The notes below the pieces were generated by a model. That model was not told where the DNA came from and made no database searches. It was given only the letters and a program-made list of their open reading frames with translations. From Candidatus Rokuibacteriota bacterium (GTDB lineage Bacteria; Methylomirabilota; Methylomirabilia; Rokubacteriales; CSP1-6), in contig QHSP01000016.1 of the NCBI GenBank assembly GCA_003220495.1, positions 1 through 64,000 of the forward strand: a stretch of DNA of 64,000 nt, read 5' to 3'. The translations under genes were made by a program, and so were the position numbers. Positions 9,270-12,400 of this stretch are shown piece by piece. Each line of letters starts with the position of its first letter. The first letter of the stretch is position 1.

Positions 9270-10835
9270 ATGACCGAACGGGTGCCGCTCCGATCGCGTT
9301 CCCTCTTCGCCCTGGTCCTGGCCGTGCTGCTGCTCCTGGGGCTGATCGTCCCCACGAAGGCGCGTTCGGAGGCGCCGGCCGGACAGCTCACGTGGGCCGT
9401 GCACATCTCGCTCGCGCCCGGATGGTTCGACCCCGCTGAAACCACCGGGATCATCACCCCGTTCATGCTGCTCTACGCGCTCCACGATGCGCTCGTGAAG
9501 CCGATGCCGGGCAATCCGATGGCGCCGAGCCTGGCCGAGTCGTGGACGATGTCGCCGGACGGTCTCAGCTACGAGTTCGTCCTGCGGCGGGGCGTGAAAT
9601 TCCACAACGGCGATCCGGTGTCCGCCGAGGACGTGAAGTTTTCCATGGAGCGCTACCGGGGCGCGGCCTCGGGGCCCTACAAGACGCGGATGGCCTCGAT
9701 CGACGTGATCGATCCGCAGCGCGTCCGCTTCCGCTTCAAGCATCCGTGGCCCGACTTCATGACCTTCTACGGCACGATGGCCACGGGCGCGGGCTGGATC
9801 GTCCCCAAGAAGTACGTCGAGAAGGTCGGCGACGACGGGTTCAAGAAGGCGCCGGTCGGCGCGGGCCCATACAAGTTCGTCTCGTTCACGCCCGGGGTCG
9901 AGCTCGTGCTCGAGGCCCACGAGCACTACTGGCGCAAGACGCCGAACGTGAAGCGGCTCGTGTTCAAGTCGATTCCCGACGAGTCGACGCGCCTGGCCAT
10001 GCTCAAGCGTGGCGAGGCCGACATCGCCTACTCGATCCGGGGCGCCCTCGCCGAGGAGCTCAAGCGGACGCCGGGGCTCACGCTCAAGCCGAACTATCCG
10101 CCCGGCACCTTCTGGCTGGTCTTCCCGGAACAGTGGACAGATCCCAAATCGCCCTGGACCGACAAGCGCGTACGCCTCGCCGCGAGCTACGCCATCGATC
10201 GGCCCGCGATCAACCGCGCCGAGACCCTCGGCTTCTCACGGATCACCGGCAGCATGATCCCCCACACGTTCGAGTTCTACTGGCCGGCGCCCACTCCCGC
10301 CTACGATCCCAAGAAGGCGCGGCAGCTCCTGACCGAAGCCGGCTATCCCAACGGCTTCGACGCGGGCGAGTACTTCTGCGACGCGTCCTACGCGAATCTC
10401 GGCGAGGGCGTCGTGAATTACTTGCAAACCGTCGGCATCCGAACGCAGCTGCGTCCGCTGGAGCGCGCCGCGTTCATCCAGCAGAACAGCCAGAAGAAGC
10501 TGAAGAACATCGTCCAGACCGCGAGCGGCGCGTTCGGCAACGCCGCCACGCGGCTCGACGCCTTCGTGGCGGCGGGCGGTACCTTCACCTACGGCACGTA
10601 CGCCGACATCGAGGGGCTCATCGCCGAGCAGGCGAGCGAGATGGATCCGAAGAAGCGCGAGGTCGTCCTCCACCGGATCCAGCAGCTCATCCACGACAAG
10701 GCGATGATCGCGCCGATCTGGGAGCTCGCGTTCATCAACGGCCACGGACCGCGCGTGGCGGAGTCGGGCTTGACCCTGATCACGAGCCACGCGTACTCGG
10801 CGCCCTACGAAGACCTGAAGCTGACGACCAAGTAG
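9270..10835 (+). CDS. ABC transporter substrate-binding protein, family 5
   Basis: A 521-residue periplasmic binding protein. A signal peptide (about residues 1-32, with a long leucine/valine core after RSRSLFAL) precedes the mature domain. Family features include SLAESWTMSPDGLSYEF, FHNGDPVSAEDVKFSMERY and VGAGPYKF. It is a close paralogue of the protein at 55093-56643 (shared YALHDALVKPMPG and GTMATGAGW-type segments) and of the relic at 2377-2544. It lacks its own permeases and may feed the importer just upstream. The ATG has GAGGAGG about 7 bases upstream. Confidence 0.9.
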   Translation: MTERVPLRSRSLFALVLAVLLLLGLIVPTKARSEAPAGQLTWAVHISLAPGWFDPAETTGIITPFMLLYALHDALVKPMPGNPMAPSLAESWTMSPDGLSYEFVLRRGVKFHNGDPVSAEDVKFSMERYRGAASGPYKTRMASIDVIDPQRVRFRFKHPWPDFMTFYGTMATGAGWIVPKKYVEKVGDDGFKKAPVGAGPYKFVSFTPGVELVLEAHEHYWRKTPNVKRLVFKSIPDESTRLAMLKRGEADIAYSIRGALAEELKRTPGLTLKPNYPPGTFWLVFPEQWTDPKSPWTDKRVRLAASYAIDRPAINRAETLGFSRITGSMIPHTFEFYWPAPTPAYDPKKARQLLTEAGYPNGFDAGEYFCDASYANLGEGVVNYLQTVGIRTQLRPLERAAFIQQNSQKKLKNIVQTASGAFGNAATRLDAFVAAGGTFTYGTYADIEGLIAEQASEMDPKKREVVLHRIQQLIHDKAMIAPIWELAFINGHGPRVAESGLTLITSHAYSAPYEDLKLTTK

Positions 10836-10838
10836 CCA

Positions 10839-10963
10839 GCAGGCCGCGGAGAAGGGTCCAGATGCGAGGCGGCGGCTGAGGCCCGACTGAGGCGTATGCC
10901 GCATACGCCGCAGGGAGGGCCGAAGTCGCCAACGAAGCAGATGGGCCCTTATCCGCGGCCTGC
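10839..10963. repeat. 125-bp long-inverted-repeat element between convergent genes
   Basis: The outer arms at 10839-10859 and 10943-10963 are inverted copies agreeing at 19 of 21 positions. Inside them, GGCCC (10880-10884) pairs with GGGCC (10917-10921). At the centre GGCGTATGC-C-GCATACGCC (10891-10909) is a perfect 9-bp palindrome. The whole element folds into one long nested hairpin. It starts just after the stop of the binding-protein gene, and its right arm forms the last codons of the amidohydrolase gene. It could be a bidirectional terminator or a small non-autonomous mobile repeat. Confidence 0.65.
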
Positions 10964-12400
10964 CCACTCGGGGTAGGTCTGGGGCGAGAGCGTGTCCACG
11001 TCGCGGCCCGCCCAGTCGAAGCGGCTCATGCGCGGCCACATGCGCTCACCCCCGGCCTGAAGCGCCGCGAGGATGGCGTGCTCGTCGGCGGCGCGCACAC
11101 GGCCGCCGTCGACCACCAGCCGGCCATCGACCCACACGCGATCGACGTCCTCGGCCGTCGCGTTGTAGACGATGTTCTTCACCGGATCGCGTAGCGGCGT
11201 CATGCCCCACGAGGCGCCCTTCCACAGGACCATGTCCGCCTTCGCGCCGGGTGCCAGGCGCCCGAGATCGTCGCGGCCGAGCGCCCGGGCGCCGCCGAGG
11301 GTCGCGGCGTCGAAGACGTGCGCGGCGGTGGTCGCCTCGGTGTTGCGCTCGACGATCTTCGACACGACGGCCGCCCAGCGCATGGCCTCGATGACGGACT
11401 GCGGATTCGTATCGGTGCCGAGCGACATGTTGACGCCGGCACGACGGTAGCCGGCGAACGATTCCATCGCGATGCCGCGCCGGGCGAAGACCCAGACCGC
11501 GTGGGCGACGGAGCACCCGGCATCGGCCATGATGGGGACGTCGCCGGCGGGGTAGTTCGTCCAGGAGGAGCCGCCGATCACGATCGCGTGGCCGAGGATC
11601 GCATTCGGGCCCAGCACCCCGAGGTCGCGCAGCCACGCGACCGGCGTCTTGCCGTGGCGGCCCAGCATCTCGTTGAACTCGACGACGGACTGCGAGGTGT
11701 GGAGCTGCCAGGGGCGCTGGCGCTCGTCGGCGGCGCGCTTGGAGGCCTGCAAGAGATCGGGCGTGCACGTGTCGACCTGAGCCGGCGAGAAGAAGCAGCG
11801 CACGAGATCGCCGTGGGCGCCGTCGTGGCGTTTGTGGAGCTCGATGGCCCTGGCGAGACCCTGGCGTCCCTGCTCCTCGTCCCACTCCCACTCGACCCGC
11901 CGGCCGTCGCGCGTGAGCCAGCGTCCGGAGCGGAAGGCCAGGCCCACGTACACGCGCAGACCGTAGTCCGCCGCGCGCGCGGCGACGTACTCGCAGGCCC
12001 CCCCGATCTCCATCACCGTGGTCACGCCGCCGCGAAGCAGCTCCACCATCGAGAAGTCCACGCACGCGCGCGTCGCCTCCTCGTCCTGCGCCGAACCGCG
12101 GACCGGCAGGAGCTCGAAGAGCCCGGAGTAGAAGAACTGGGGATTGCCGCGGTCCTCGATGAACGAGCGGTCGAGCGGCGAGCCGCCGAGGTGCGCGTGA
12201 GTCGAGATCAGCCCTGGTGTCAGGATCGAGGCTCGGGCGTCGATCGTCTCGACGTCCGTCCCGACGGGTGCGGCGGCTCGCGGGCCGACCGAAACGATGC
12301 GGTCGCCGTCGACGATCACGGTTCCGTCCCGCAGCAGGCGGTGGCCCCCGCCGTCGAAGGCGATCACGTGACCGGCGTGGATGGCGGTGCGACGGGGCAT
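10949..12400 (-). CDS. Amidohydrolase (ATZ/TRZ or cytosine deaminase-like)
   Basis: A 483-residue metal-dependent hydrolase of the amidohydrolase superfamily. Metal ligands are seen as HAH in TPGLISTHAHLGG, the His of WQLHTSQ, the His of ILGHAIVI and the Asp of SLGTDTNP. These fit the mononuclear TrzN/AtzB/SsnA-like branch, which deaminates or dechlorinates N-heterocycles and related amidines. The C-terminal KADMVLWKG and VWVDGRLVVDGGRV strands form the usual flanking beta domain. The final codons and the TAA stop lie inside the right arm of the inverted-repeat element. The natural substrate is unknown. Confidence 0.85.
   Translation of the reverse strand: MPRRTAIHAGHVIAFDGGGHRLLRDGTVIVDGDRIVSVGPRAAAPVGTDVETIDARASILTPGLISTHAHLGGSPLDRSFIEDRGNPQFFYSGLFELLPVRGSAQDEEATRACVDFSMVELLRGGVTTVMEIGGACEYVAARAADYGLRVYVGLAFRSGRWLTRDGRRVEWEWDEEQGRQGLARAIELHKRHDGAHGDLVRCFFSPAQVDTCTPDLLQASKRAADERQRPWQLHTSQSVVEFNEMLGRHGKTPVAWLRDLGVLGPNAILGHAIVIGGSSWTNYPAGDVPIMADAGCSVAHAVWVFARRGIAMESFAGYRRAGVNMSLGTDTNPQSVIEAMRWAAVVSKIVERNTEATTAAHVFDAATLGGARALGRDDLGRLAPGAKADMVLWKGASWGMTPLRDPVKNIVYNATAEDVDRVWVDGRLVVDGGRVRAADEHAILAALQAGGERMWPRMSRFDWAGRDVDTLSPQTYPEWAGRG

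Follow-up and report, generated by a model that had tools for sequence, protein, structure and literature searches.

We found that a 125-bp palindromic element in the DNA of a Rokuibacteriota bacterium is probably, with a chance of about three in four, an old copy of a non-autonomous palindromic MITE family that targets TA. The element lies at positions 10839-10963 of the window (the whole 64,000-nt stretch that was analysed, from the genome labelled G000), and its canonical orientation (GGTCCAGATGCGAGGCGG ... GCCAACGAAGCAGATGGGCC) is on the + strand. Below, G and L labels stand for our genomes and loci.

The preliminary description had reported a 125-bp nested palindrome between convergent genes, and this was confirmed by the arms, the fold and the gene calls. 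The left arm (10839-10865, + strand) and the right arm (10937-10963, + strand), both placed by arm pairing, are 27 nt each and 85% complementary, and 71 nt separate them. Between them lies the central palindrome, the apical stem (10887-10913, assigned to neither strand), which was defined by pairing, motif search and covariation; here the inner palindrome GGCGTATGC-C-GCATACGCC is contained in a 13-nt, 92% pair. The window strand was predicted to fold into a single near-perfect hairpin, with an RNA minimum free energy of -96.2 kcal/mol versus a shuffle mean of -53.1 (z -11.4), and none of 200 shuffles folded equally well. The opposite strand gave -79.2 (z -7.3), and folding with DNA parameters gave -50.6 (z -8.7). 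Two motif searches found one copy within the window. It scored 134.0 bits (E 1.1e-27) with the covariance model of the family, R1, for which it was itself one of the 43 sequences used in building. A search of the element with Rfam covariance models returned no family match, and a terminator scan at the window copy found none, the T run being interrupted (TTATC). No TA is found directly at either end of this copy, and its insertion site was read only through orthologues.

To the left, a gene of a transporter component (SBP_bac_5) ends with a TAG stop codon (10833-10835, + strand) 3 nt before the element. It is convergent with an amidohydrolase gene (PF01979, Amidohydro_1; 10949-12400, - strand; ORF and domain match), the 3' end of which is element-derived. 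The last five codons of the amidohydrolase (10949-10963, - strand) are GCA GGC CGC GGA TAA, coding AGRG-stop with the TAA at 10949-10951, and are supplied by the right arm. That the right arm encodes the last residues of this protein had been claimed earlier, and it was borne out when alignments of orthologous loci were read by eye: the window protein ends with YPEWAGRG*, and those of relatives end without the added tail, as YPEWT* (G007), YPEWA* (G002), YPEWQ* (G023), YPDWSA* (G010) or YPSW* (G003). The element was absent beside the amidohydrolase gene in five relatives (G007, G002, G010, G023 and G015), among which G007 alone retains the SBP gene adjoining the amidohydrolase gene in the alignment. 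In G003 the element is present with TAG at the junction, directly after YPSW. The junction stop is missing in G000 and G006, where AGRG-stop is read from the arm; of the element itself, G006 has the right half alone, and it retains the AGRG tail. Among 98 genes abutting the right end of copies, 11, including the window amidohydrolase, stop 11 or 14 nt within the arm. The earlier idea that a MITE-like repeat supplied a new gene end fits these results, with the refinement that the junction stop was apparently lost after insertion, so that translation enters the arm. By parsimony across the orthologues, we infer that in the window lineage the junction stop would have been lost later than the insertion, four residues would then have been read from the arm, and translation would now stop at the TAA of the arm.

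BLASTN showed that the element belongs to a dispersed family with copies in its own genome and in relatives, and is not single-copy, the case that the preliminary description had named against its reading. When the 125 bp was searched against its own genome, 10 matches were obtained at E<=1e-5, two of which were the window copy itself (either strand), leaving eight places elsewhere with full or partial copies. BLAST matches were found in 23 of 58 other genomes; 19 of the 21 class-level relatives in this set had no match. The R1 covariance model, built from the window copy and 42 copies of less than 90% mutual identity drawn from 102, matched 17 of 38 other genomes and left 12 of 13 class-level relatives without a match. 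Totals of model matches count both strands, so a single palindromic copy may score twice. Counted in this way, the own genome had 13 matches (8 distinct places among the matches listed), the relative G016 had 75 (62 distinct places among the matches listed), and four of the genomes searched had 34 to 85 each.

A scan of named genomes with a 3'-arm pattern found at least 118 stretches, and 78 of the 80 titled matches among those listed were of Rokubacteria/Rokuibacteriota, the other two being from Deltaproteobacteria and Gemmatimonadetes bins. The Gemmatimonadetes bin OFB_bin.31 (G062, L077) had 34 model matches on both strands, in 29 distinct places among the matches listed, and Deltaproteobacteria DP_36 (G061, L075) had 4, both strands counted. 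Either the family reaches into other phyla or these bins are mixed. Most copies (L058-L175) were obtained with an exact 3'-arm pattern, and conserved copies are thus over-represented. Plasmids and phages searched with the long form of the element gave no match, nor did viral contigs searched with one exact 3'-arm pattern. Copies also occurred in close head-to-tail tandems of two or three (L269, G025:C98 32921-33317; L071; L107; L123; L166). At L386 (G060:C2), which is orthologous to the copy at L272, a different short palindrome with a similar centre was seen by eye.

The intact unit was recognized in G016, where it measures about 150 or about 210 bp from TIR to TIR, has ends starting GCAGGNTGCTGAAAAA and reads TA-GCAGGNTGCTGAAAAAC ... 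CAGCAGCCTGC-TA; the long form has about 60 additional loop bases. A 1701-base stretch containing a copy gave 122 matches across G016 and its congeners G059 and G060, and many of these, at 83-97% identity, covered nothing but the element (query about 742-893). The arms of the G016 type carry AAAAAGG...CCTTTTT, and TTTTT follows the inner stem. The outer left end was present in 34 of 162 copies and is lacking in most copies outside the G016 type; the remaining copies, including that in the window, begin at the inner GCAGG. G016-type units are short and dispersed, lack a transposase of their own and have terminal inverted repeats, which are the features of a TA-type MITE. A search of G016 for longer elements with these ends gave 49 matches, and the 30 loci read contained no longer unit, only the two forms of about 150 and 210 bp, one tandem and relics. 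Short forms of 46-71 bp were also observed (L012:1501-1546, L008, L009/L011 and the G006 orthologue of L002). Those of L012 and of the G006 orthologue are consistent with loss of the sequence between the two CAGATG repeats, one in each arm, and L008 and L009 retain more of the stem.

Insertion was then read from sister genomes, in which empty sites lie at a TA that is usually part of a TAG stop codon. A target-site duplication, which the preliminary description had proposed to look for, was present at the three empty sites readable on both sides (L062, L355 and L364), and it was of TA. L062 is empty in two sisters, reading ...CTCCAG-TA-GGGTCGCG with the gene end CTC CAG TAG GGTCGCG, and the filled site reads ...CTCCCC-TA-(element)-TA-GGGCCTCG. 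Over 33 bases, the filled right flank agrees with the empty site of one sister at 25 and with that of the other at 24, and 54 other TAG sites of the same loci, used as a control, reached at most 16. The gene further right sits elsewhere in both sister genomes, and the continuity is therefore short. At L355, read by eye, the empty site is GGCGCCC-TA-CGGAGGATACC and the filled site is GGCGCCC-CA-(element)-TA-GAGGATACC, the left TA having decayed to CA; L364, also read by eye, concurs with duplication of TA.

In a survey of empty sites in G060 (about 1.06 Mb, loci read by eye), the left end lay at a TA belonging to a TAG stop for L307, L340, L047 and another copy of L062. Other loci were unlike a simple TA insertion: at L328/L084, the comparison with G060 shows about 10 nt missing from between two stop codons, and at L345 and L130 G060 has TGA in place of the TAG at the filled site. 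The tetramer at the right junction of 216 de-duplicated copies was CTAG in 87, CTAC in 14 and CTAA in 9, and 96 had no TA at this junction. The L122 query gave no flank match among the matches listed and the range taken for L158 missed the element, so neither provided an informative empty site.

For the analysis of gene context, 264 HMM matches (nhmmer) were reduced to 149 distinct full-length copies of 112-128 bp, orthologues being counted separately. Of these, 133 were classifiable once 15 copies at locus edges and one within an ORF had been excluded. Genes were called with a simple purpose-made ORF scorer, not a published gene finder. A stop codon was found within 25 nt of an end in 111 of the 133 copies, and at both ends in 21. 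After de-duplication, TAG accounted for 67 of the 81 stops within 3 nt of the element (83%; 84% before de-duplication) versus 275 of 896 stops far away. Divergent gaps held 6 of the 133 copies; among the 376 copy-free gaps of 60 nt or more, 94 were divergent. Coding DNA contained few CTAGs (48 in the 1.06 Mb measured); of the 255 CTAGs in non-coding DNA, 97 were within 4 nt of a stop, duplicates being kept in both counts. Targeting of TA/CTAG accounts for part of the preference for stop codons (111/133), not for all of it.

As a mechanism, a TA-specific DDE transposase of the IS630/Tc1-mariner type, acting in trans, would move the element. Insertion into the TA of TAG or TAA would recreate TAG before either end, because the first base of the element is G and the last is C. 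Stop codons would be harmless landing sites, since the terminal G restores TAG.

The covariation for which the preliminary description had suggested looking was found in the stems, and this contradicted a lack of structural conservation. In the alignment of 43 copies, 17 of 34 consensus pairs had changed on both sides with pairing kept. The window copy differs from its orthologue in G003 at 9 positions, six of which form three compensated pairs, and one pair is lost; three or more compensated pairs appeared in 9 of 200,000 random draws. We compared 23 orthologous pairs of copies, which were hand-picked (including L001/L030) and share members, so that they are not independent: four had no substitution, and 14 of the 19 varying pairs showed an excess of compensated changes (p <=0.0065). 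The five varying pairs without an excess were L003/L271, L034/L263, L084/L137, L109/L273 and L314/L321. At L003 (1482-1604), L264 and L266, the element is identical in three species (G000, G002 and G004) and its flanks are 82-92% identical; the gene end at these loci reads DVEIKL-stop, which we take to resemble that of a ribosomal protein.

At many orthologous sites the hairpin is kept after insertion by paired changes, which may come either from selection for a hairpin at the 3' end or from templated correction from arm to arm. The orthologue data favour change in place, and do not separate selection from templated correction. If arm-to-arm correction acted alone, it would have to leave untouched the fifteen consensus-unpaired columns that were at least 95% identical. 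Of 148 copies, 147 folded better as the canonical strand. G-U and A-C pairs occurred equally often outside three wobble columns (16 versus 17), and adjoining genes read either strand of the element; conservation is therefore not explained by a single transcript strand. L072, L135 and L148 have identical 95-nt cores with different, self-complementary stems. Since the stems change together despite identical cores, a plain DDE transposon does not explain them, and the concerted change of the terminal stem could come from rapid selection, from target-derived arms or from arm-templated copying. We also considered insertion into existing terminator hairpins as the source of the covarying stems. This was disfavoured, because none of the readable empty sites in the G060 survey was seen to hold a bare outer hairpin and because orthologous copies covary in place.

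Several other explanations of the element were weighed against a TA-targeting MITE. A chance hairpin in ordinary intergenic sequence has next to no probability, being contradicted by the fold z score, the number of copies and the covarying stems. The strongest competitor, though still an unlikely one, is a functional RNA hairpin at 3' ends, such as a bidirectional terminator or mRNA stabiliser, whose spread would be secondary and whose placement at stops would reflect selection. It would account for stop codons abutting one or both ends, for the T run that comes after the GC-rich hairpin, whichever strand is read, in the G016 type, for compensatory change at orthologous loci, and for the identical copy in three species amid more divergent flanks. 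Against it, the T run of the window copy is broken and no terminator was scored there, the balance of G-U and A-C favours no transcript strand outside the three wobble columns, and near-identical copies within a genome together with empty sister sites need mobility. The element may also act as a bidirectional terminator or small RNA, which the preliminary description had offered as an alternative.

We give a still smaller probability, well below that of the RNA hairpin, to a REP-like element moved as a single-stranded hairpin by a Y1 transposase of the RAYT/IS200 type. The structured hairpin with near-invariant consensus-unpaired bases and the better folding of one strand are in line with such an element. 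Y1 genes (PF01797), however, were found in three of the nine genomes searched (G016, G026 and G053) and were absent from the copy-bearing G000, G002, G003, G029, G030 and G035, and no element ends were found in 12 loci around PF01797 genes. Duplication of TA is not known as a feature of Y1 transposition and also counts against it. With no linked Y1 gene in these nine genomes and 12 loci, the RAYT link was dropped. In G053, of the same class, PF01797 was matched ten times across nine contigs, and the loci read there contained no ends of the element.

The transposase search covered two families, DDE_3 and Y1, in nine genomes and 24 loci. PF13358 (DDE_3) was present in four of the nine genomes and absent from G000, G016, G029, G030 and G053. 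Twelve DDE_3 loci, each taken as the match with up to 1.5 kb on each side, contained no close match to the element ends; the sole near matches were one TIR-like sequence with 4 mismatches and one core-like sequence with 3 mismatches. The IS630 link found no support in these loci, and we classified the family as a TA-type MITE by its structure and target, not as IS630-derived. An integron attC site, marked by R boxes and a cassette array, was considered and provisionally set aside on the R-box motifs (RYYYAAC/GTTRRRY).

Returning to the MITE family, we tentatively propose a wider picture, which we hold to be clearly less probable than the assignment itself: a palindrome that seeks stop codons may supply or replace gene ends and be kept for long as a two-way 3'-end structure, its arms being rewritten in concert by strong RNA-level selection or arm-templated copying. 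Rokubacteria are an uncultured group of soil and groundwater, in which a mobile repeat family is now described. Such a family would show how a transposon can land safely on stops, give rise to new C-terminal tails and endure as the structured end of a gene, and its orthologous copies are natural replicates with which RNA-level selection could be separated from palindrome-correcting mutation.

REP palindromes are found 3' of genes. The Rokubacteria element is like REP/RAYT in this position, and differs in its length, in its TA duplication and in having no linked Y1 in the loci read. In the open-licence literature we found no paper describing a palindromic or miniature inverted-repeat family of Rokubacteria, and a term search of a 2024 review of prokaryotic MITEs (PMC10969869) returned none of 'stop codon', 'compensatory' and 'Rokubacteria'. 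According to the accessible part of another source, ERIC of enterobacteria (also IRU or RU-1) is about 127 bp, gives transcripts that fold into long stem-loops, is MITE-like with TA termini and target duplication, and has been found in gene fusions (PMC2229807). The Rokubacteria element resembles ERIC in size, folding and TA termini as described there. It differs in the abutment of the stop at the TAG junction and in its ends (GCAGGNTGCTGAAAAA), and it is not a member of ERIC, as the window copy had no BLAST match in 20,395 E. coli records.

The same part of that source describes RUP of S. pneumoniae as 107 bp, with 108 copies, TA target sites and stop codons in all frames, and as proposed to be moved by IS630-Spn1, whose ends the RUP ends resemble (PMC2229807). 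Unlike RUP, the Rokubacteria element had no IS630-type partner with matching ends in the nine genomes and 12 loci. NEMIS shares size, folding and TA termini with ERIC and RUP, and in the features given there it is similar to the Rokubacteria element as well (PMC2229807). QMITE1/2 of Coxiella burnetii are, in the accessible part of their description, MITEs lying over C-terminal gene ends with overlaps of 1-50 bp; in enhC, the C-terminal 33 residues come from a QMITE in one strain, and in another a stop precedes the element (PMC5896051). An element-supplied C-terminal tail is thus common to QMITE and the Rokubacteria family, which differ in the organism and in the boundary-exact stop of many Rokubacteria copies, the two being set apart by this partial description and not by sequence. 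We concluded that the family is undescribed within the open-licence literature searched, and that it is similar in kind to ERIC and RUP, with an unusually precise placement at stop codons.
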